Shown here piece after piece: positions 7,159-34,347 of a DNA stretch of 34,347 bases (positions within the stretch are counted from its first letter, which is position 1; each line of letters starts with the position of its first letter). The stretch is taken from assembly GCA_944385575.1 (NCBI GenBank), contig CALWXT010000016.1, positions 1 through 34,347 of the forward strand, given 5' to 3'. Under the pieces are notes generated by a model. The model saw only the letters and a list, made by a program, of their open reading frames with translations. It was not told the DNA's origin and did no database searches. A program made the translations under genes and the position numbers. This DNA is from an uncultured Flavonifractor sp. Lineage in GTDB: Bacteria; Bacillota; Clostridia; Oscillospirales; Oscillospiraceae.

Positions 7159-7517
7159 AGCGGACCTTTACCTGCATCATCTGCCCCAACGGCTGTGAGA
7201 TTACTGCCGAGTATGAGGGCACCGACGTGCGCTCCATAGAGGGCGCCACCTGCCCCAAGGGGAAGGATTACGTCCGGCAGGAGCTGACCGATCCCCGGCG
7301 GAACATCGCCACCAGTATTCCCGTGGAGGGCGGCGAGCTGCCTCTGGTCAGTGTCCGCCTAGACCGCCCCATCCCCAAGAAGGACATTTTCGCCGTCATG
7401 GACGCCATCAACAAGCTCCATGTCAAAGCGCCCACCACCATCGGACAGGTGGTCCTGTCCGACGTGTGCGGCCTGGGTGCCAACGTTATCATTACCAAGC
7501 CGGTAGCGGCTGTTTAA
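7155..7517 (+). CDS. DUF1667 small cysteine-rich protein, third subunit of the dehydrogenase
   Basis: A 120-residue DUF1667 protein. Cys7, Cys10 and Cys14 (TCIICPNGCEI) and Cys33 (ATCPKGKDY) are arranged like ligands of an iron-sulfur cluster or a metal. The family is nearly always encoded beside GlpA-like and GlpB-like flavoproteins, as here, and is assumed to be an electron-transfer or assembly subunit. The start is GTG at 7155 and overlaps the TGA of the previous gene. No biochemical role is established to my knowledge. Confidence 0.82.
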   Translation: MKRTFTCIICPNGCEITAEYEGTDVRSIEGATCPKGKDYVRQELTDPRRNIATSIPVEGGELPLVSVRLDRPIPKKDIFAVMDAINKLHVKAPTTIGQVVLSDVCGLGANVIITKPVAAV

Positions 7518-7559
7518 GCCCCTCCGGCTGCCGGAAAAACCCGGGAGGTTTTCAGTAAC

Positions 7560-8438
7560 TTGAAGATTGGACTGATCGGACTGGGCATCATGGGCAAGCC
7601 CATGGCGCGGAACCTGCTGAAGGCAGGCTATGACCTCACTGTCAGCACCCGCAACCAGGCCACGGTGGCCGAACTGGTGGCCGAAGGTGCCACCGGTGCC
7701 ACTTACGCCCAGGTGGGCGAGACCTGCGATGTGGTGCTCACCATGCTGCCCAGCCATCCCCAGGTAGAGTCCGTCATGCTGGGTGAGGACGGCGTAGCCG
7801 CCCATATGAAGCCCGGCAGCATTTTCATCGACATGAGCTCCGTCAACCCCGTGGCATCCAAACGGATCGCCGGGGAGCTGGCCAAGAAGGGTATCGAGAT
7901 GCTGGACGCCCCTGTGTCCGGCGGCGAGCCTAAGGCCATTGACGGCACGCTGTCCTTTATGGTAGGCGGCAAGCAGGAGATCTTTGACCGCTGCCGGGAC
8001 ATTCTCCTGGCCATGGGCACCTCCGTGGTGCGCTGCGGCGAGGTGGGTGCCGGCAATACGGCCAAGCTGGCCAATCAGATTATCGTGGCCTGCAACATCC
8101 AGGCTCTGTCCGAGGCCCTGACCCTGGCCAAGATGGCCGGTGTGGAGCCCCAGCTGGTATTTGAGGCCATTCGGGGCGGCCTGGCCGGGTCCACCGTCAT
8201 GGAAGCCAAGGCTCCCATGATGATCGCCGGAGACTTTACCCCCGGTTTCAAGATCGACCTGCATATCAAGGACCTGAACAACGCCCTGGACTGTGCCCAC
8301 GCGCTGGGCGCGCCCCTGTCTATGACAGCCCAGGTCCAGGAGGTGCTCCAGTGGCTGCACAACAACGGCTGCGGCCAGGAGGACCACAGCGCCATCCTCA
8401 AGCACTATCAGAAACTCACCGGTCTCTCCGCTCTGTAG
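7560..8438 (+). CDS. garR: 2-hydroxy-3-oxopropionate (tartronate semialdehyde) reductase, copy 1
   Basis: Reduces tartronate semialdehyde to D-glycerate. It belongs to the 3-hydroxyisobutyrate dehydrogenase superfamily and is very close in motif content to E. coli GarR: GLGIMG (7-12), MLDAPVSGGEPKAIDGTLSF in the middle, KLANQ with catalytic Lys169, and PGFKIDLHIKDLNNALD near the end. The start is TTG at 7560 behind a good GGGAGG (7543-7548). Compared with copy 2 directly downstream, about 82% of residues match by my hand alignment, but the loop after the second beta strand reads STRN instead of SDLN. Asp30, which normally holds the adenine ribose of NADH, is replaced by Thr followed by Arg, so this copy may prefer NADPH (inference). 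Confidence 0.92.
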   Translation: MKIGLIGLGIMGKPMARNLLKAGYDLTVSTRNQATVAELVAEGATGATYAQVGETCDVVLTMLPSHPQVESVMLGEDGVAAHMKPGSIFIDMSSVNPVASKRIAGELAKKGIEMLDAPVSGGEPKAIDGTLSFMVGGKQEIFDRCRDILLAMGTSVVRCGEVGAGNTAKLANQIIVACNIQALSEALTLAKMAGVEPQLVFEAIRGGLAGSTVMEAKAPMMIAGDFTPGFKIDLHIKDLNNALDCAHALGAPLSMTAQVQEVLQWLHNNGCGQEDHSAILKHYQKLTGLSAL

Positions 8439-8524: not shown

Positions 8525-9403
8525 ATGAAAGTCGGACTGATTGGTCTTGGTATTATGGGTAAGCCCATGGCGAAGAATCTGCTGAAGGCGGGCTATGACC
8601 TGACTGTCAGCGACCTGAACAAGGCCGCCGTGGACGAAGTGGTGGCCGCCGGCGCCAAGTCCGCCACCAACGCCGAGATCGGCGAGACCTGCGACGTGGT
8701 CCTGACCATGGTGCCCAACAGCCCCCAGGTCAAGGCCGTGATGCTGGGTGAGGACGGCGTGGCCGCCCACATGAAGCCCGGCAGCGTGTTCATCGACATG
8801 AGCTCCATCAACCCCGTGGCCTCCAAGGAGATCGCCGCTGAGCTGGCCAAGAAGAACATCGAGATGCTGGACGCCCCCGTGTCCGGCGGCGAGCCCAAGG
8901 CCATCGACGGCACCCTGTCCTTCATGGTGGGCGGCAAGCAGGAGGTCTTTGACAAGTACAAGGATCTGCTGGGCGCCATGGGTGCTTCCGTGGTCCGCTG
9001 CGGCGACGTGGGCGCCGGCAACACCACCAAGCTGGCCAACCAGATCATCGTGGCCTGCAACATCCAGGCTCTGTCTGAGGCCCTGACCCTGGCCAAGATG
9101 GCCGGCGTGGAGCCCCAGCTGGTGTTTGAGGCCATCAAGGGCGGCCTGGCCGGTTCCACCGTTATGAACGCCAAGGCTCCCATGATGATCGAGGGCAACG
9201 ACAAGCCCGGCTTCAAGATCGACCTGCACATCAAGGACCTGAACAACGCTCTGGACTGCGCCCACACCGTGGGTTCCCCCCTGCCCATGACCGCCGCTGT
9301 GCAGGAGGTCTTCCAGTGGCTGCACAACAACGGCTGCGGCCAGGACGACCACAGCTCCATCATCAAGTACTACAAGAAGCTGACCGGCATCGAGTCCCTG
9401 TAA
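8525..9403 (+). CDS. garR: 2-hydroxy-3-oxopropionate (tartronate semialdehyde) reductase, copy 2
   Basis: Same reaction and family as copy 1: nucleotide motif GLGIMG (7-12), Ser120-Gly-Gly122 in VSGGEPKAIDG, catalytic Lys169 and Asn172 in TTKLANQ, 292 residues. It keeps Asp30 (VSDLNK), the residue typical of NADH-dependent members and present in E. coli GarR (ADRN). It has an ideal AGGAGG site (8511-8516) after a short AT-rich stretch, and its codons are more uniformly C/G-ending than those of copy 1, suggesting this is the more highly expressed reductase. The two copies look like an in-place duplication followed by divergence. Confidence 0.93.
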   Translation: MKVGLIGLGIMGKPMAKNLLKAGYDLTVSDLNKAAVDEVVAAGAKSATNAEIGETCDVVLTMVPNSPQVKAVMLGEDGVAAHMKPGSVFIDMSSINPVASKEIAAELAKKNIEMLDAPVSGGEPKAIDGTLSFMVGGKQEVFDKYKDLLGAMGASVVRCGDVGAGNTTKLANQIIVACNIQALSEALTLAKMAGVEPQLVFEAIKGGLAGSTVMNAKAPMMIEGNDKPGFKIDLHIKDLNNALDCAHTVGSPLPMTAAVQEVFQWLHNNGCGQDDHSSIIKYYKKLTGIESL

Positions 9404-27226: not shown

Positions 27227-28666
27227 ATGGCACAGGACAAGAAACAGGTGGAACAGATCACCGATATGGAGGTGGACTTCGCCAAGTGGTTCACCGATGT
27301 GTGCAAGAAGGCGGAGCTCATTGACTACTCCTCCATCAAGGGCGTGTTCATTTACCGCCCCTACGGCTACGCCATCTGGGAGAACTTTCAGAAGATTCTG
27401 GACGAGAAGTTCAAGGAGACCGGGCATGAGAACGTGTACCTGCCCATGCTGATCCCCGAGAGCCTGCTCCAGAAGGAGAAGGACCACGTGGAGGGCTTTG
27501 CGCCCGAGTGCGCCTGGGTGACCATGGGCGGCTCCGAGAAGCTGGAGGAGCGCTACTGCATCCGTCCCACTTCCGAGACCCTGTTCTGTGAGCACTATAA
27601 GGATATCATCCACTCCCATCGCGACCTGCCCAAGCTGTACAACCAGTGGTGCTCCGTGCTGCGCTGGGAGAAGACCTCCCGCCCCTTCCTGCGCCATCGG
27701 GAGTTCCTGTGGCAGGAGGGCCACACCATGCACGCCACCGCCGAGGAGGCTATCGCTGAGACCGAGCGCATGTTCAACATCTACGCCGACTTCTGCGAGA
27801 ACTACCTGGCCATGCCCGTGGTGAAGGGCCGCAAGACCGACAAGGAGAAGTTCTCCGGTGCTGAGGCCACCTACACCGTGGAGTGCATGATGCACGACAA
27901 GAAGGCCCTTCAGGCCGGTACCTCCCACTACTTCGGCGATGGCTTCGCCCGCGCCTTCGACATCACCTTCGCCGGCAAGGACAACCAGCCCCACCACCCC
28001 TTCCAGACCTCCTGGGGCGTGTCCACCCGTCTGATCGGCGGCGTCATCATGACCCACGGCGACAACAACGGCCTGGTGCTGCCTCCCCGCATCGCTCCTA
28101 CCCAGGTTATCATCATTCCCGTTGCCCAGCACAAGGAGGGCGTGCTGGCAGCCAATGAGGCTGTCATGGCCCGCCTGAAGGCCGCCGGCATCCGGGTGAA
28201 GATGGATGCCTCCGAGCAGTCCGCCGGTTGGAAGTTCGCCGAGTACGAGATGAAGGGCGTGCCTCTGCGTCTGGAGATGGGCCCCAAGGATATGGAGAAG
28301 AACCAGTGTGTGCTGGTCCGCCGGGACAACGGCGAAAAGAGCTTTGTCTCTCTGGACAACATCGAGGAGACCGTCAAGACCATGCTGGACGCGGTGCAGC
28401 AGGGCCTGTACGACAAGGCCAAGCGCAACCTGGACGAGAATACCTACGCCTGCTCCACCGTGGAGGAGGTCAAGGAGAAGATGTCCACCCAGGGCGGCTT
28501 TGCCAAGACCATGTGGTGCGGCGACGAGGCCTGCGAGCTCAAGATGAAGGAGATCGCCGGCGTGTCCTCCCGCTGCATCCCCCTGGAGCAGGAGCACCTG
28601 GGCGACGTGTGCCCCGTCTGCGGCAAGCCCGCCAAGCATATGGTGTACTGGGGCGTGGCTTATTAA
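27227..28666 (+). CDS. proS: Prolyl-tRNA synthetase, archaeal/eukaryotic type
   Basis: Charges tRNA-Pro with proline. The 479-residue length, the absence of the large INS editing domain, and the C-terminal zinc-type extension (Cys431, Cys436, Cys462, Cys465, ending in Tyr479) define the archaeal/eukaryotic-like ProRS rather than the common bacterial type of about 570 residues. Class II motif 2 is visible as [18 protein letters not shown], and [16 protein letters not shown] and [20 protein letters not shown] are also typical. This type occurs in part of the Clostridia. The ribosome site is weak (GAGATAGAG). The gene stands alone between two terminators. Confidence 0.96.
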
Positions 28667-28672
28667 AAAGGG

Positions 28673-28711
28673 AAACAGGACTGCCGGATCGTTTCCGGCA
28701 GTCCTGTTTTT
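28673..28711 (+). terminator. Terminator after proS
   Basis: AAACAGGACTGCCGGA (28673-28688) pairs with TCCGGCAGTCCTGTTT (28694-28709) around a TCGTT loop; a T5 run (28707-28711) follows. The stem is perfect. Confidence 0.93.
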
Positions 28712-28725
28712 GTGAAAAATTCCGG

Positions 28726-28754
28726 TTGCAATTGAAAAACGATGGGTTTATAAT
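28726..28754 (+). promoter_or_regulatory. Promoter of the aromatic amino acid operon
   Basis: -35 TTGCAA (28726-28731), 17-base spacer, -10 TATAAT (28749-28754); predicted start near 28761. This leaves about 235 bases of leader before aroF. The same hexamers and spacing occur in the peptide-transport promoter. Confidence 0.8.
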
Positions 28755-28769
28755 GACAACAACCTGTTA

Positions 28770-28808
28770 TTGTGAGGCGTTATATGATGAATCAACGTAA
28801 CCTCACAA
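28770..28808 (+). promoter_or_regulatory. Leader hairpin enclosing the start of the leader peptide
   Basis: TTGTGAGG (28770-28777) pairs with CCTCACAA (28801-28808), with TTA/TAA (28780-28782 with 28798-28800) continuing the helix after a two-base bulge. The GAGG ribosome site of the leader ORF is inside the stem and both candidate ATGs lie at its end or in the loop. It could limit initiation on the leader peptide. Confidence 0.55.
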
Positions 28809-28888
28809 CTGCATCCTACCTGTTCTCCTTTGGCTGGGCTCGATTTATGGGCACCGGCTTTTTTGGCATGGGGAAAATAGGCGGATGA
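28784..28888 (+). CDS. Aromatic-rich leader peptide of the aro operon
   Basis: A 34-codon ORF with ribosome site GAGG (28774-28777). It begins MMNQRNL and its middle reads SYLFSFGWARFMGTGFFG: five Phe, one Tyr and one Trp lie within residues 12-27. The ORF ends 50 bases before a perfect intrinsic terminator that precedes the DAHP synthase gene. Leader peptides rich in codons for the operon's end product are the mark of ribosome-mediated attenuation (trp, phe and his leaders of enterobacteria). Here Phe codons dominate and pheA is in the operon. The second ATG (28787) has nine-base spacing and could equally be the start. No function beyond regulation is expected. Confidence 0.72.
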   Translation: MMNQRNLTTASYLFSFGWARFMGTGFFGMGKIGG

Positions 28889-28890
28889 AG

Positions 28891-28955
28891 GAAATGGGCT
28901 GAGCCTTTTTGCAGGCTCTGTGGAACCAATCTATTTGGGGACGCTCATTGATTTC
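28891..28955 (+). promoter_or_regulatory. Possible antiterminator and competing hairpin
   Basis: GAAATGGGCTGAGC (28891-28904) can pair with GCTCATTGATTTC (28943-28955): TGAGC with GCTCA and GAAAT with ATTTC, joined by a small internal loop. This would use the 5' arm of the terminator and prevent it from forming. A second hairpin, GAGCCT (28901-28906) with AGGCTC (28913-28918), competes for the same upstream strand. The upstream strand starts two bases after the leader ORF's stop, where a finishing ribosome would cover it. Structures were found by eye, without energy calculation. Confidence 0.5.
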
Positions 28956-28974
28956 ATCAATGAGCGTCCTTTTT
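28939..28974 (+). terminator. Attenuator terminator upstream of aroF
   Basis: GGACGCTCATTGA (28939-28951) and TCAATGAGCGTCC (28957-28969) form a perfect 13-bp stem with a five-base loop, followed by T5 (28970-28974). It lies between the operon promoter and the first enzyme gene, so it must be bypassed or regulated. Confidence 0.93.
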
Positions 28975-28995
28975 ATTGCAAGGAGGAGGAAACTT

Positions 28996-30015
28996 ATGGT
29001 AGTCGTAATGAAGCCGGGCACCAGCAAGCAGGATATTGACGCCCTGGTCAGCAAACTGAAAGAGCAGAACCTGGAAGTAGGCATCACCAACGGTATTGGA
29101 TGCACCATCCTGGGCCTGGTGGGCGATACCACCGCCGTGGATATGGACAAAATCTCCATCAACCCCCACGTGGAGCGGGTCATGCGGGTGCAGGAGCCCT
29201 ACAAGAAGGCCAACCGCAAGTTCCACCCGGAGGACACGGTGGTGAGCGTAGGCAACGCCAAGATCGGCGGCAGGAATTTCTCCGTCATCGCCGGACCCTG
29301 CTCGGTGGAGAGCGAGGAACAGATTTGTGCCGTGGCCGCCGACGTGAAGGCCTCCGGTGCGGCTCTGCTCCGGGGCGGCGCCTTTAAGCCCCGCACCTCC
29401 CCCTACTCCTTCCAGGGCATGGGCACCGAGGGCCTGGACCTGCTGATGGAGGCACGGGAGAAGACCGGCCTGCCCATCGTCACCGAGATCATGGACCCCC
29501 GTATGGCCGACCTGTTCGAGCGGGAGGTGGACGTGGTCCAGGTGGGTGCCCGGAACATGCAGAACTTCGAGCTGCTCAAAGAGGTGGGCAAGATGAGCAA
29601 GCCCATCCTGCTCAAGCGGGGCCTGTCCAACACCTATGAGGAATGGATCATGTCCGCTGAGTATATCATGGCCTCCGGCAACGAGAACGTGATCCTCTGC
29701 GAGCGGGGCGTGCGTACCTTTGAGACTTACACCCGCAACACCTTGGACGTGTCCGCCATCCCTGCCGTCCGGCAGATGAGCCACCTGCCCATTATCGTGG
29801 ACCCCTCTCATGCCGCCGGTATGTACTGGATGGTGGAGCCCCTGGCCCTGGCCGCCGTGGCCGCCGGGGCAGACGGCCTCATCATCGAGGTCCACAACGA
29901 TCCTGCCCACGCCAAGTGTGACGGCCAGCAGTCCCTCACCCCTCAGAAGTTTGACGGCCTGATGCATAAGGTGAGCGCCCTGGTTGACCTGGTGGGCAAG
30001 ACTTTGATAAAATAA
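28996..30015 (+). CDS. aroF: 3-deoxy-7-phosphoheptulonate (DAHP) synthase, type I-beta
   Basis: Condenses phosphoenolpyruvate and erythrose-4-phosphate, the first step to chorismate. Residues 1-70 form the ferredoxin-like regulatory domain found in Thermotoga-type enzymes (beginning MVVVMKPGTSKQDIDALVSK), which gives feedback control by aromatic amino acids in relatives. The barrel follows, with AGPCSVES (metal-binding Cys), LRGGAFKPRTSPYSFQG, VGARNMQNFELLKEVG, DPSHAAG (metal-binding His) and IIEVHNDP. Length is 339 residues. The ATG at 28996 follows an AAGGAGGAGG site directly after the attenuator, so expression may be controlled both by attenuation and by feedback. It is first in the aroF-aroB-aroA-aroC-pheA order. 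Confidence 0.95.
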   Translation: MVVVMKPGTSKQDIDALVSKLKEQNLEVGITNGIGCTILGLVGDTTAVDMDKISINPHVERVMRVQEPYKKANRKFHPEDTVVSVGNAKIGGRNFSVIAGPCSVESEEQICAVAADVKASGAALLRGGAFKPRTSPYSFQGMGTEGLDLLMEAREKTGLPIVTEIMDPRMADLFEREVDVVQVGARNMQNFELLKEVGKMSKPILLKRGLSNTYEEWIMSAEYIMASGNENVILCERGVRTFETYTRNTLDVSAIPAVRQMSHLPIIVDPSHAAGMYWMVEPLALAAVAAGADGLIIEVHNDPAHAKCDGQQSLTPQKFDGLMHKVSALVDLVGKTLIK

Positions 30016-30054: not shown

Positions 30055-31119
30055 ATGAAAACCCTCACCGTGGCCCTGCCGGGGCGGAGCTATGATATTC
30101 TGATAGAACGCGGTCTGCTGGATCGGGCCGGGGAACACTGTCGGGCGGTGCTGCCCCGCGCGTCCAGGCTGTTTGTGGTGACTGACTCCACCGTGGGCCC
30201 ATTGTACCTGAAGCGGACTATCCCCTCACTGGAGGCCGCTGGATTTGAGACAGCCATCTGTGAAATCCCTGCCGGCGAGGCGTCCAAATGCGCCGGAGAG
30301 CTCAGCCGTCTGTGGGAATGTATGATGGACTTCGGTCTCACCCGCACCGACGCCGTGATCGCCCTGGGCGGCGGCGTGGTGGGGGACCTGGCGGGCTTCG
30401 CCGCCGCCACCATCCTCCGGGGCGTGGACTTTGTCCAGATCCCCACCACCCTCCTTTCTCAGGTGGACTCCTCCGTGGGAGGGAAGGTGGCCATCGACCT
30501 GGACCACGGCAAGAACCTGGCCGGGGCCTTCTGGCAGCCCAAGCTGGTGCTGATGGACCCGGACACCCTGGACACCCTGCCGGACGCCACCTTTGCCGAC
30601 GGTATGGCGGAGGTCATCAAATACGGCTGCATTTTTGACAGGACCTTTTTCGATTTCCTGGCCCAGCGGCCCTCCCGGGCTCAGCTGATGGAAGAAATTG
30701 AACATATTTTGTATAAATGCTGTGATTTAAAACGAATCGTTGTGGAGGAGGATGAGCGGGACACGGGAAAACGGATGCTTTTGAACTTCGGACACACCCT
30801 GGGCCACGCCTACGAGCTGGCGGGGCACTATGAGACCTGGACCCACGGCCAGGCGGTGGCCGCCGGTATGGTGCGTGCCGCCGGACTGGGTGAGAAGCTG
30901 GGCGTTACCCCTGCCGGGACGGCAGAGACCATTGCCAGGGTGCTGGCTCCCCTGGGCCTGCCCGCGGAGATCCCCTGCACCATGGAGGAATATGCTGCCG
31001 CCGTAGGCCTGGACAAGAAGGGGGCGGGGGCGGATATCTCCCTCATCCTGCTGGAGGAGCTGGGCCGGGCGGTCCCCCACAAAATGCCCAAGCAAGCGCT
31101 GCTGGAGGAACTGAAATGA
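30055..31119 (+). CDS. aroB: 3-dehydroquinate synthase
   Basis: Converts DAHP to 3-dehydroquinate with NAD and a divalent metal. Signature segments are ALGGGVVGDLAGFAAATILR, PTTLLSQVDSSVGGKVAIDL, ADGMAEVIKYG with the metal-binding Glu, and NFGHTLGHAYE with the metal-binding His. Length is 354 residues. The ATG at 30055 follows AAAGGATGGGG; a TTG seven codons earlier is in frame but has no ribosome site. A short AT-rich stretch (about 30690-30740) stands out against the GC-rich gene, without breaking the frame. The stop overlaps the aroA start (ATGA). Confidence 0.95.
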   Translation: MKTLTVALPGRSYDILIERGLLDRAGEHCRAVLPRASRLFVVTDSTVGPLYLKRTIPSLEAAGFETAICEIPAGEASKCAGELSRLWECMMDFGLTRTDAVIALGGGVVGDLAGFAAATILRGVDFVQIPTTLLSQVDSSVGGKVAIDLDHGKNLAGAFWQPKLVLMDPDTLDTLPDATFADGMAEVIKYGCIFDRTFFDFLAQRPSRAQLMEEIEHILYKCCDLKRIVVEEDERDTGKRMLLNFGHTLGHAYELAGHYETWTHGQAVAAGMVRAAGLGEKLGVTPAGTAETIARVLAPLGLPAEIPCTMEEYAAAVGLDKKGAGADISLILLEELGRAVPHKMPKQALLEELK

Positions 31120-32324
31120 ATGTGACGGCCGGCATCATGCCCGCTCAATTTGACCTTACTGTTACGCCTGCCCCGCTGCGGGGGACGGTGACGCCGCCGC
31201 CCTCCAAGTCCCAGTCCCACCGGGTGCTGATCGCTGCGGCCCTTGGGACAGAGAAAAGCCGTGTCGGGAACCTGGGCAGCTCGGAGGATATTGACGCCAC
31301 CCGGCGGTGCATGGCGGCCCTGAAAACGCCGGGGGAAGATCTGCCCGAACTGGACTGCGGGGAGAGCGGCTCCACGCTGCGTTTTCTCATTCCGGTGGCT
31401 CTGGCCCTCCGGGGCGGCGGACGGTTCACCGGCCGCGGACGGCTGATGGAGCGGCCCCAGGAGCCCTATTTCGCCATCTTTCGGGAGAAGGGTATTGCCT
31501 GGGAGCAGAAGGATGGCGCGCTGACGGTGCAGGGACATCTCACCCCGGGAGACTACACCCTGCCGGGGGACGTGTCCTCCCAGTTTGTCACCGGTCTGCT
31601 GTATGCCCTGCCTCTGCTGGACGGGGACAGCCGCATCCTGCTGACCACCCCCCTGGAATCCAGGGGGTATATCGACATGACCCTGGACGCCCTGGAGCAG
31701 TTCGGGGTGAAAGCGGAGTACGACGGGGACTGTGTCTTCCGGGTACCTGGCAATCAGAAGTACCAGGCCCGGGGTGTGATCATTGAGGCCGACTGGTCCA
31801 ATGCCGCCTTCTGGTATGCCGCCTGTTTTATGGGCTGTGAGCTGGATATCCAGGGCCTCAACGCCTTTTCCGCCCAGGGCGATATGCGCATCGTACCTTA
31901 TTATATGAAGCTGCAGGGGACGGGACCGGTGGATCTGGACGTGAGCCAGTGCCCCGACCTGGTGCCTCCGCTGGCTGCCATGGCGGCCCTGCGGGCAGGG
32001 GAAACCACCCGCATTGTCAATGCTGCCCGGCTGCGCATCAAGGAGAGCGACCGGCTGGCTGCGGTGACGGAAGTGCTCAATGCGATGGGGGCCCAGGTGG
32101 AGGAGTTTGAGGACCACCTGGTGATTCATGGAAAGGAACGACTGGCGGGTGGCGTCACCGTTTCCGGACACAACGACCACCGCATCGCCATGATGGCCGC
32201 CATTGCTGCCATCCGGTGCAACGGCCCGGTGACCATTACCGGCGCCGAGTGCGTGAAGAAGTCCTACCCGGGCTTCTGGGAAGATTACCGCAGTTTGGGA
32301 GGAAAACTGACATGCGGCACATGA
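31116..32324 (+). CDS. aroA: 5-enolpyruvylshikimate-3-phosphate synthase
   Basis: Transfers the enolpyruvyl group of phosphoenolpyruvate to shikimate-3-phosphate. Motifs are PPSKSQSHR with the substrate-binding Lys, CGESGSTLRFL in place of the common GNAGT loop, RLRIKESDRLAAV, GHNDHRIAM and KKSYPGFWEDY. At 402 residues it is about 25 shorter than the E. coli enzyme, mostly in loops. The altered phosphoenolpyruvate-site loop may change glyphosate sensitivity, but this cannot be judged from sequence alone. It starts inside the aroB stop and its end overlaps the aroC start by 13 bases. Confidence 0.94.
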   Translation: MNVTAGIMPAQFDLTVTPAPLRGTVTPPPSKSQSHRVLIAAALGTEKSRVGNLGSSEDIDATRRCMAALKTPGEDLPELDCGESGSTLRFLIPVALALRGGGRFTGRGRLMERPQEPYFAIFREKGIAWEQKDGALTVQGHLTPGDYTLPGDVSSQFVTGLLYALPLLDGDSRILLTTPLESRGYIDMTLDALEQFGVKAEYDGDCVFRVPGNQKYQARGVIIEADWSNAAFWYAACFMGCELDIQGLNAFSAQGDMRIVPYYMKLQGTGPVDLDVSQCPDLVPPLAAMAALRAGETTRIVNAARLRIKESDRLAAVTEVLNAMGAQVEEFEDHLVIHGKERLAGGVTVSGHNDHRIAMMAAIAAIRCNGPVTITGAECVKKSYPGFWEDYRSLGGKLTCGT

Positions 32325-33355
32325 TTTTTGGTGAGTCCCACGGCCCTGCCATCGGCGTGGTGCTGGAGGGCGTGCCTGCCGGCCTGGAACTGGATCTGGA
32401 ACGGGTCCAGTGGGAACTGGACCGGCGGCGTCCGGGGAAGGACCCAACCGCCACCGCCCGGAAAGAGGCGGACAGGGTGGAGGTGCTCTCCGGCCTCTTT
32501 GAGGGCAAGACCACCGGTGCCCCTCTGGCCATGGTGATCTATAATACCGACCAGCATTCCAAGGACTACGAGTCCATCCGCTACACCCCCCGGCCCAGCC
32601 ACGGGGACTATGCCGGGTTTATCAAGAGCCGGGGTACCCAGGACTACCGGGGCGGCGGCCACTTCTCCGGACGGCTCACCGCGCCGCTGACGGCGGCGGG
32701 GGCGGTAGCCAAGCAGGTGCTGGAGCGCAAGGGCGTGTGGGTGGGTGCCCATATCAGCTCCATCTACGGCATCTGCGATTCGCCTCTGGGTGAGCTGGAC
32801 GAGATGAAGGACGTGGCCAACAAGCCCTTCCCGGTACTGAATGACGCCAAGGGGGAGGAGATGCGCCGGGCCATCCTGGAGGCCAAGGAGCAGCAGGACA
32901 GTGTAGGCGGTGCCATCGAGTGCGGAGTGTGGGGCCTGCCCGCCGGGCTGGGTGCCCCTGACTTCGGCTGCAACGTGGAGGGCATTTTTGCCCAGCACCT
33001 GTTTGCTGTGCCTGCCGTCAAGGGCGTAGACTTCGGCGCTGGTGCGGCCTTCTCCCTAATGCGGGGCAGCGAGGCCAACGACCCCTTCGCGGTGGAGAAC
33101 GGCAAGGTGGTCACCACCACCAACCACGCCGGTGGCGTCAACGGCGGCATTACCAACGGCATGCCGGTGGTGTTTGAGGCCACCATCCGGCCCACGCCCT
33201 CCATCTCCCTGCCCCAGCAGAGCGTGGATCTGCGCACCGGGGAGGAGACAGAAATCGAGATCCACGGCCGCCACGATCCCTGCATCGTCCCCCGGGCGGT
33301 GCCGGTGATCGAGGCCGCCGCCGCCCTGGCCGCCTGCGCGGTGCTGGGTATTTAA
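32312..33355 (+). CDS. aroC: Chorismate synthase
   Basis: Makes chorismate from 5-enolpyruvylshikimate-3-phosphate using reduced FMN. Visible signatures are GESHGPAIGVVLEGVPAGL, RRRPGKDPTATARKEADRV, RPSHGDYAGFIKSRGTQDYR with GGGHFSGRLTAPLTAAGA, NHAGGVNGGITNGMPVVFEA and GRHDPCIVPRAVPVIEAAA. Length is 347 residues. GGGAGG (32297-32302) selects the ATG at 32312; a second in-frame ATG lies three codons on. Overlap with aroA suggests translational coupling. Confidence 0.95.
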   Translation: MRHMIFGESHGPAIGVVLEGVPAGLELDLERVQWELDRRRPGKDPTATARKEADRVEVLSGLFEGKTTGAPLAMVIYNTDQHSKDYESIRYTPRPSHGDYAGFIKSRGTQDYRGGGHFSGRLTAPLTAAGAVAKQVLERKGVWVGAHISSIYGICDSPLGELDEMKDVANKPFPVLNDAKGEEMRRAILEAKEQQDSVGGAIECGVWGLPAGLGAPDFGCNVEGIFAQHLFAVPAVKGVDFGAGAAFSLMRGSEANDPFAVENGKVVTTTNHAGGVNGGITNGMPVVFEATIRPTPSISLPQQSVDLRTGEETEIEIHGRHDPCIVPRAVPVIEAAAALAACAVLGI

Positions 33356-33369
33356 AGGAGCGAATGAAC

Positions 33370-34347
33370 ATGACCGAACTGGAAGGATACCGGCAGGAGA
33401 TCGACCGCATCGATGGGGAACTGGTGAAGCTGTTCCTGGAGCGTATGGCGGTCACCGGCAAGGTGGGGGAATACAAGCAGCGAGCGGGCATCCCGGTGCT
33501 GGACGCCGGCCGAGAGAAGCAGGTCATTGCCGCCAAGACCGCCCTTACCGATGATCCTGCCCGGAAAGCGGATATCGCCGCTCTGTACGAGTCTATCATG
33601 GCCATTTCCCGCCGGCAGCAGCGCCATCTGGTGCGGGAGGGGACGGAGGACGCGGGTTACGCCGCCTGGCTGGCCGACCTGGCCCGTGCCAGAGAGCCAG
33701 TGGCCCGCCCCCGGGTGGTGTACCAGGGGGAGCCAGGCTGTTACAGCGAGGAGGCCGCCGCTGGTTTCTTCGGGGATGATGTGGACAGCCGGGGCCTGGC
33801 CTGGTTTACCGACGTCTTTGCAGCCCTGGAACGGGGAGAGGCCGACTACGCCGTGGTACCGGTGGAGAATTCCTCCACCGGGTCCATCCGGCAGGTGTAC
33901 GACCTGATGGCCCAGTGCCGTTATTCCATCGTGGGAGAGTGGCAGGTGAAGGTGGAGCACTGCCTGATGGCGCTGCCGGGTGTGGAACTCTCTGATATCC
34001 AGAGCGTCTATTCCCATGAGCAGGGTCTGATGCAGTGTGAAAAGTACCTGGACGCCCACCGGGACTGGAAGCGGGTCCCTACCTTGGACACCGCTGGTTC
34101 TGCCAAGCTGGTGGCCGAGACCGGTGATCGCACCGCGGCTGCCATCTGCTCCCGCCGGGCGGCCAGGCTCTACGGCCTGAATATCCTGGCGGAGGGTGTC
34201 AACTACAACAGCATGAACCACACCCGGTTTGCCGTGGTGTCCCCCGTGCCTGAGCTGCGCACCGGCCGGGACAAGATCAGCGCCATGTTCCGCCTGCCCC
34301 ACCAGAGCGGCTCCCTCCACGAGATCCTCACCATCTTCGCCGTCCAG
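33370..34347 (+). CDS. pheA: Bifunctional chorismate mutase/prephenate dehydratase (3' end outside window)
   Basis: Turns chorismate into prephenate and then phenylpyruvate, the phenylalanine branch. The N-terminal AroQ chorismate mutase domain (about 1-85) includes EIDRIDGELVKLFLERMAVT and KVGEYKQRAGIPVLD. The prephenate dehydratase domain (about 115-295) includes VYQGEPGCYSEEAAAGFFG, VENSSTGSIRQVYDLM and the catalytic NHTRFAVV. The ACT domain for Phe feedback begins near ISAMFRLPHQSGSLHEIL and is cut by the window edge. AAAGGAG (33354-33360) favours the ATG at 33370 over the one at 33364. As the last visible gene, it ties the operon to Phe, which agrees with the Phe-rich leader peptide. Confidence 0.94.
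   Translation, partial: MTELEGYRQEIDRIDGELVKLFLERMAVTGKVGEYKQRAGIPVLDAGREKQVIAAKTALTDDPARKADIAALYESIMAISRRQQRHLVREGTEDAGYAAWLADLARAREPVARPRVVYQGEPGCYSEEAAAGFFGDDVDSRGLAWFTDVFAALERGEADYAVVPVENSSTGSIRQVYDLMAQCRYSIVGEWQVKVEHCLMALPGVELSDIQSVYSHEQGLMQCEKYLDAHRDWKRVPTLDTAGSAKLVAETGDRTAAAICSRRAARLYGLNILAEGVNYNSMNHTRFAVVSPVPELRTGRDKISAMFRLPHQSGSLHEILTIFAVQ

Follow-up and report, generated by a model that had tools for sequence, protein, structure and literature searches.

The classical attenuators of Proteobacteria (trpL, pheL and hisL) combine a short open reading frame (ORF) containing control codons with alternative RNA stems and a terminator. The principle of amino-acid leader-peptide attenuators has been described (PMC9413887), and related elements have been reported in Firmicutes. 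Histidine (his) leader-peptide attenuators have been recognised in bacilli, the Bacillus cereus group, Peptostreptococcaceae, Lutispora and Erysipelotrichales (PMC2965389; PMC9413887). The leucine-rich attenuator peptide of the Staphylococcus aureus ilv-leu operon is experimentally supported (Kaiser et al., 2018; PMC5794164). In Bacillus subtilis, vmlR and tlrB carry upstream ORF (uORF) attenuators with NusG-dependent pausing (PMC9226507; PMC12288461). The uORFC-13-1 motif, known from 24 Acholeplasma and environmental sequences, lies upstream of aroF (Brewer et al., 2021; PMC8632094). The subject of this report is the leader of an aroF-aroB-aroA-aroC-pheA operon in a 34,347-nucleotide (nt) stretch of DNA from an uncultured Flavonifractor sp. 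(Clostridia; contig CALWXT010000016.1). This whole stretch is called the window, and its genome is referred to as G000, in which leader and operon lie on contig C16.

The leader is very probably a ribosome-mediated attenuator of the trp/phe-leader type that senses charged tRNA-Phe, with a probable contribution from Tyr. A sequence-only reading of this DNA had placed a promoter, an aromatic ORF, a possible antiterminator and a terminator in that order before aroF; promoter, ORF and terminator are present, and the antiterminator is supported (Table 1). Its proposal of ribosome-mediated attenuation is supported by a conserved frame, control codons, covarying hairpins and a Phe-to-Tyr swap among related leaders, all of it evidence from comparison. 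The operon that it had named is likewise borne out by Pfam matches for all five genes, pheA running beyond the end of the window.

The leader ORF was compared across 117 unique upstream regions from 150 loci, obtained after removal of duplicates and short upstream stretches. Among these, 93 leaders were picked by the motif CGATTT (L103 excluded), so that conservation of CGATTT is built in; many of the genomes are metagenome assemblies, and relatedness inflates all counts. The ORF translates as MNQRNLTTASYLFSFGWARFMGTGFFGMGKIGG. It has 33 codons, or 34 from the ATG at 28784, from which the earlier count of 34 codons with five Phe, one Tyr and one Trp at residues 12-27 is correct; the start kept among relatives aligns with 28787, not 28784. 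Starts were scored where an ATG follows a GAGG at 3-14 nt, and the first such ATG was in frame with CGA-TTT in all 82 scorable leaders (11 were unscorable). In alignment A2, which holds 43 of the 44 group-A leaders (L121 omitted), the distance from the ATG to P2, a hairpin inside the ORF, was 81, 84 or 87 nt and always a multiple of three (43/43), while stop-to-terminator lengths were spread 14/15/14 over the three length classes. Aromatic codons made up 22.7% of codons in frame; the other two frames gave 8.2% and 16.4%, and shuffled sequences 12.3%. The in-frame share exceeded the mean of the leader's own shuffles in 93/93 leaders. The sequence-only reading had asked whether relatives might lose the ORF while keeping the terminator; the outcome spoke for the proposal, and aromatic codons are conserved in frame beside hairpins that covary.

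The matched specificity of two leader types provides the best evidence that the codons set what is sensed. G000 contains a second gene for 3-deoxy-D-arabino-heptulosonate 7-phosphate (DAHP) synthase (L151:6354-7370), followed by tyrA (7374-8234; Pfam PDH_N and PDH_C), and the leader of this aroF2-tyrA pair is MKHVAGYVYSYYRCYYASGDFACP. Phe codons outnumber Tyr codons in 87 of the 93 leaders of the first gene (aroF1) and equal them in the remaining six. Among aroF2-tyrA leaders, Tyr codons outnumber Phe codons in 21 of the 22 that were scored, with one tie, and a tyrA match was present for all 22, within 250 nt in 21. These 22 come from 25 distinct aroF2 loci: the Tyr-rich leader of L147 lacks an ATG start, L170 has no such leader, and L187 was left unscored because its stretch has no tyrA match. 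In the rest of the family and order, mixed Phe/Tyr leaders predominate before aroF-tyrA-aroB operons, the aroF-pheA pair of L251 has an almost purely Phe leader and the aroF-tyrA pair of L241 a Tyr-rich one. Since the swap from Phe to Tyr tracks the downstream gene, pheA or tyrA, it appears to be the codons that confer specificity.

These data bear on the possibility that the leader is a structured RNA, such as a riboswitch or a protein-bound leader, that works without translation and whose ORF is incidental or serves only to open the RNA. Such a reading would account for the extreme nucleotide conservation of P2 and its loop (CGAUUUA), third codon positions included, and for the covariation of the hairpins, and it has a precedent in the candidate riboswitches reported before Enterococcus faecium aroFBC-tyrA (PMC4448216). 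It is nevertheless improbable given the in-frame starts and in-frame length changes, the aromatic codons kept in frame within the most variable part of the ORF and a Phe/Tyr content that follows pheA or tyrA. No Rfam match supports it either: no T-box (RF00230) or other relevant family matched the window leader at expect values (E) up to 5, and the matches listed were to animal, plant and unrelated small-RNA families, far below gathering scores. T-box control of this leader was discarded for lack of a match to the RF00230 covariance model. Elsewhere in G000, 12 T-boxes were found at E<=0.001, six of them above the family cut-off. T-boxes above the RF00230 gathering score replace the leader peptide before aroF-aroB in L233:304-568 and L243:359-599, which belong to two other families of the order; this looks like a naturally arisen swap of one sensing system for another at the same gene.

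The control codons themselves are probably limited to codons 11-15. The stretch between strand 1 of the outer stem P0 and hairpin P2 varies more than any other part of the ORF (variability 0.24-0.26), yet at least two aromatic codons occur there in 55 of 58 readable leaders. In these 58 leaders the stretch contains 125 Phe, 40 Tyr and no Trp codons; aromatic codons account for 56% of it in frame, compared with 13% and 31% when it is read in the other two. Trp was therefore rejected as a sensed amino acid, its codon in the window being variable among relatives (YARF, QARF, CGRF) and absent from the control window; trpE (PF04715) was found in one of seven genomes. When the finished leader was folded under constraint, P0 was absent with the ribosomal A site at Y11, F13 or F15 and present with it at F20 or F25, which makes a control role for the later Phe codons unlikely. 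F20, F25 and F26 lie in the loop of P2 and the T-tract that follows it. The control region is thus probably shorter than the run of Phe codons as far as 28864 that was suggested earlier.

Table 1. Features of the aro leader and operon, in window coordinates.
Feature	Position	Strand	Basis or remark
Promoter, sigma-70-type, TTGCAA-17 nt-TATAAT	28726..28754	+	10/12 hexamer matches
Shine-Dalgarno sequence GUGAGG of leader ORF	28772..28777	+	able to pair with CCUCAC 28801-28806 (P1)
Leader-peptide ORF (alternative start 28784)	28787..28888	+	in-frame start, in-frame lengths among relatives
P0 outer stem, strand 1, CAUCC	28812..28816	+	partner 28883-28887
Putative control codons Tyr11-Leu12-Phe13-Ser14-Phe15	28817..28831	+	aromatic codons kept in relatives
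P2 hairpin inside ORF, predicted RNA polymerase pause hairpin	28832..28859	+	minimum free energy (MFE) fold
T-tract TTTTTT with predicted pause (U28869 as RNA 3' end, then G28870)	28859..28870	+	position profile
P0 outer stem, strand 2, GGAUG	28883..28887	+	overlaps stop codon 28886-28888
Antiterminator strand 2	28884..28899	+	partner 28943-28958
P3 hairpin, nested within antiterminator	28901..28918	+	covariation
Intrinsic terminator	28937..28971	+	16 uninterrupted pairs including two end G-U, loop UUC, then U's
Antiterminator strand 3	28943..28958	+	within terminator 5' arm, loop and start of 3' arm
aroF, DAHP synthase with ferredoxin-like domain	28996..30015	+	Pfam PF00793, PF18152
aroB, 3-dehydroquinate synthase	30055..31119	+	Pfam PF01761, PF24621; listed ORF begins 30034
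aroA, 5-enolpyruvylshikimate 3-phosphate synthase	31116..32324	+	Pfam PF00275
aroC, chorismate synthase	32312..33355	+	Pfam PF01264
pheA, chorismate mutase-prephenate dehydratase	33364..34347, past window end	+	Pfam PF01817, PF00800

The RNA stems are conserved to differing degrees. The region 28770-29000 has a more stable fold than shuffled versions of it (z -3.73, 0/200 as good). In the 43 aligned leaders, P1, P0, P2, P3 and the terminator (T) together have 86.8% of cells paired, compared with 33-49% in slid registers, and the five stems hold 19 pairs changed on both sides, compared with 8.9 after shuffling (0/500 as high); 16 of the 19 fall in T and P3. The terminator was reported in 92 of the 93 leaders, at least two of which (L036, L107) are visibly mis-picked. 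Its core helix has 97.7% of cells paired, with 8/12 pairs changed on both sides, and its base 68.6%, with 4/4; the terminator of the sequence-only reading is confirmed at 16 pairs and not as a perfect 13-bp helix. P3 has 60% of cells paired and 4/5 pairs changed on both sides. The corresponding values are 93% and 1/5 for P0, of which variants were seen by eye (CATCT:AGATG in L025 and CATCCGT:ACGGATG in L068), and 97% and 2/10 for P2. P0 and P2 rest mainly on near-complete pairing rather than on covariation. P1, the Shine-Dalgarno hairpin, has 78% of cells paired, none of its pairs is changed on both sides, and the alignment argues for it weakly. RNAalifold, run without hints on the 43 leaders, returned P2 and the terminator and nothing else.

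P2 exceeds in stability random recodings that encode the same peptide segment, with a mean z of -1.34 in 92 Phe-type leaders and -1.81 in 22 Tyr-type leaders; the effect is weaker in the 14 closest (-0.73) and the 15 most distant (-0.56) Phe-type leaders. Tyr-type stems were counted per sequence, since alignment A3 misplaced the loop: a stem of at least six pairs was present in 21/22, and changed pairs were seen at its positions 4, 6 and 7. A rough look found the outer stem in some Tyr-type leaders, not in all. The P2-loop codons CGA-TTT (Arg-Phe; 28841-28846 in the window) recur in the 93 leaders, though they are mostly unpaired, and CGA is rare in window genes (5 of 158 Arg codons).

The antiterminator foreseen by the sequence-only reading is supported, in a different register. 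The best pairing joins 28884-28899 with 28943-28958, not 28891-28904 with 28943-28955; it is longer than the one first proposed and shares bases with the outer stem's strand 2. The two strands pair at 14 of 16 positions in the window and at 9-15 in the other 42 leaders. Across the alignment, the core of the helix is 94.4% paired compared with 32-55% when slid, and the full helix 83.7% compared with 32-64%. When partners were sought in each sequence separately (85 of 92 terminators, seven being skipped), the CUCAU-type core lay within the best partner in 65/85, and 80% of the best partners began at most about 13 nt from where the stop codon ends. The score fell when partners were exchanged between species (15.95 real; 15.33 +/- 0.22 swapped). 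Because the 3' strand of P0 shares 28884-28887 with the antiterminator, the two are mutually exclusive. In constrained MFE folds of a transcript ending at 28962, the antiterminator formed 14/16 pairs in six of seven states; with the ribosome on the stop codon it formed none, and seven terminator pairs appeared instead. At this transcript end, only the ribosome on the stop codon abolishes the antiterminator, in line with the classical stall/stop geometry invoked earlier.

A pause inside the ORF is likely at U28869. NusG-dependent pauses of B. subtilis are marked by TTNTTT at -11 to -6 together with a hairpin that lies 11-12 nt away from the 3' end of the RNA (PMC12288461). In the window, TTTTTT (28859-28864) occupies -11 to -6 of U28869, counted from C28858 in the last P2 pairs. 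Among relatives (86 of the 93 Phe-type leaders were profiled), a T-G step occurs 11/12 nt past the stem in 72/86 Phe-type and 19/22 Tyr-type leaders, encoding mostly Met/Val in one type and Cys in the other. In 78/86 and 14/22, respectively, positions -8 to -6 are TTT. The exact TTNTTT is present in the window, in 37/86 Phe-type and in 2/22 Tyr-type leaders. Phe codons just after P2 are TTT:TTC 118:6, compared with 125:68 upstream (Fisher p 3.5e-11). No NusG was found in G000. In the three NusG proteins read from L227-L229, the motif is RNVRG, an intermediate form in which, relative to B. subtilis NusG, Asn is kept and Val replaces Thr. The pro-pausing residues of NusG are N81 and T82 (PMC12288461).

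Two further explanations compete with attenuation by Phe. In one, P2 with its T-tract is a first terminator opened by translating ribosomes and 28937-28971 a second, so that control would respond to the level of translation and not to Phe. P2 is indeed G+C-rich and followed by six T's in the window, but the T-tract is interrupted in many relatives whereas the pause-like T-G step is kept, and the matched control codons are left unexplained, which makes this arrangement extremely improbable. The other explanation is nascent-peptide arrest as in TnaC-type systems: within the ribosome tunnel, the peptide itself would respond to free Phe or Tyr rather than to tRNA charging. The residues R-F-x-G-x-G-F recur in Phe-type leaders, in favour of such arrest. 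However, third codon positions are the least variable within P2 (0.044 compared with 0.080 and 0.052), which points to a constraint on the RNA; by eye, Tyr-type and many order and class leaders lack most of these residues; and the geometry demands induction on starvation, the opposite of ligand-induced arrest. Nascent-peptide sensing is thus very improbable.

Returning to ribosome-mediated attenuation, the comparison of relatives points to a coding frame with a Shine-Dalgarno sequence, control codons, P2, a terminator, an antiterminator complementarity, a stem 1:2 (P0) that excludes it and a specificity matched to the downstream gene. The steps of pausing, stalling and read-through are those we infer from it. 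RNA polymerase would pause at U28869 behind P2, which may allow a ribosome to begin translating the leader ORF in time. When Phe suffices, the ribosome would reach the stop codon and cover approximately 28884-28898, blocking the antiterminator and letting the terminator act. With low Phe, it would stall at codons 11-15 and mask strand 1 of the outer stem; strand 2, once freed, would pair with strand 3, and transcription would enter aroF. If the leader were not translated, the earlier-made stem 1:2 would presumably hold strand 2, favouring termination.

Several observations weigh against this interpretation. Third codon positions of the ORF are no freer than the others (0.140 compared with 0.168 and 0.148 in 43 leaders), so selection on the peptide is not separable from constraint at the RNA level. 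The full 16-pair antiterminator at 83.7% hardly exceeds its shuffled value of 82.7% (10/500 as high), the highest of 200 partner swaps (15.99) lies above the real score, and covariation of the antiterminator beyond sequence conservation is modest. Little covariation might be expected there, since strand 3 must pair with both strand 2 and the 3' arm of the terminator. RNAalifold returned no pairs on the wider, mixed alignment A4 (36 of 87 leaders); inspection by eye showed the stem one base out of register from one leader group to the other. In equilibrium folding of a transcript ending at 28976, the terminator was preferred in all seven states, so regulation must be kinetic. At 28962, the fold without a ribosome favours the antiterminator over P0, and read-through without translation would therefore be expected. 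The order of folding appears to fit a kinetic attenuator, of which equilibrium folding is no proof. Changes to the candidate control codons in the leader peptide of Streptomyces coelicolor ilvB have been reported to be without effect (PMC1262725). Finally, some aroF copies have no leader, among them L064, L072, L073, L112 and L114.

The visible context of such copies varies. In L072 and L073, aroF lies 32 and 38 nt behind a proS-like gene without a visible leader, and in L064, L067, L088 and L116 it is without a visible leader behind another gene, with its own promoter-like sequence; these six are read as losses or relocations. The distribution of the leader was assessed with a strict rule requiring a Shine-Dalgarno sequence, at least six aromatic residues in 16 and a terminator. 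It was satisfied by 126/196 upstream regions, compared with 0/196 reverse strands and 0/980 shuffles: 74/110 for aroF1 and 12/25 for aroF2-tyrA in the family, 20/22 for other family loci, 12/20 for the order (19 families, with one or two loci each) and 8/19 for the class. The rule misses real cases, several leaders that are plain by eye failing it. A sequence-only model (R1) built from A4 matched in 51/300 genomes, once in each; its match in G274 (L273) was set aside as an apparent chance match before a gene presumed to be RNase-J-like. At L272:377-2064 (G275, contig C6), the leader MKLSVRFSYYRGFGWARFTGAGALS precedes a gene whose product is presumably a shikimate kinase-shikimate dehydrogenase fusion, and then an aminotransferase-like gene. 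The leader element of G275 suggests that it is not tied to aroF alone. Taken together, the balance tilts towards an ancient, class-wide Clostridia family of leaders before DAHP synthase operons, whose codons would have been retuned (Phe, Tyr or both) to the genes of each branch and which would depend on a pause hairpin within the ORF.

Judged by AroF, close named relatives are Flavonifractor sp. An306 (95%), Candidatus Flavonifractor merdavium (94%) and F. plautii ATCC 29863 (93%). At 19 of 20 further loci, the aroF1 operon keeps its order as far as pheA and the stretch shows no tyrA match on the same strand; the 20th ends with its contig. A search of the 501-base region found one promoter where 0.6 was expected, and promoter-like hexamers were also seen by eye in the upstream regions of relatives. 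The ORF upstream of the leader (27227-28666) presumably encodes prolyl-tRNA synthetase. Between it and the promoter lies a 16-pair hairpin (28673-28709) that is terminator-like on the minus strand and has T's on the plus side as well, possibly a two-way terminator isolating the aro operon. Far from the operon, two adjacent and very similar 292-aa ORFs (7560-8438 and 8525-9403) lie in an apparent catabolic cluster; read as 3-hydroxyisobutyrate dehydrogenase-type, they are probably a tandem duplication.

If this account is correct, ribosomes must trail RNA polymerase closely at these Clostridia loci. B. subtilis has been reported to run transcription and translation uncoupled (PMC7858274). Leader-peptide attenuation is apparently widespread in one class of Firmicutes, beside T-boxes in the same genomes, which bears on the generality of uncoupling, and the predicted pause within the ORF would be a concrete means of synchronising RNA polymerase and ribosome. 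The leaders also constitute a large natural set in which one enzyme is apparently placed under Phe, Tyr or both by leader codons alone, a built-in test of attenuation. They further suggest ready reporters of Phe and Tyr starvation for gut anaerobes.

The systems described earlier differ from this one in what is sensed and where. The Firmicutes his attenuators were likewise found by comparison and share repeated control codons with a terminator/antiterminator pair; they use His codons before histidine genes, and no aromatic genes are named in the portions available (PMC2965389; PMC9413887). The S. aureus ilv-leu leader is also ribosome-mediated attenuation in a Firmicute, on a branched-chain operon in Bacilli (PMC5794164). 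The vmlR and tlrB leaders share a uORF, the TTNTTT motif, a pause hairpin, an antiterminator and a terminator, and differ in sensing antibiotics (PMC9226507; PMC12288461). By description, uORFC-13-1 resembles the present leader in its position at aroF, a uORF with at least one Phe codon, a terminator right after it and proposed attenuation (PMC8632094). The candidate riboswitches before E. faecium aroFBC-tyrA (Lactobacillales) act in the same pathway through premature termination, with no leader peptide mentioned in the description at hand (PMC4448216), and T-box leaders (RF00230), none of which is in the window leader, are an alternative control of the same genes.

The sequence-only reading had presented a leader-peptide system on an aro operon of Firmicutes as new or little described; its novelty is narrower, leader-peptide attenuators having been published for Firmicutes his genes, for S. 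aureus ilv and, as a candidate, for Acholeplasma aroF (PMC2965389; PMC9413887; PMC5794164; PMC8632094). No description of an aromatic leader-peptide attenuator in Clostridia was found in a literature judged mostly by titles and the beginnings of abstracts, with subscription journals mostly outside it. Compared by anatomy, the present leader shares with trpL, pheL and hisL the ORF with control codons, stems 1:2, 2:3 and 3:4, a stop codon in strand 2, a pause hairpin and a terminator. It differs in that the Clostridia pause hairpin lies wholly within the ORF, nested in a separate switching stem. The logic is thus a known one; what appears new here is its class-wide Clostridia lineage, its matched Phe and Tyr twins and a pause hairpin in the ORF set apart from the switching stem.

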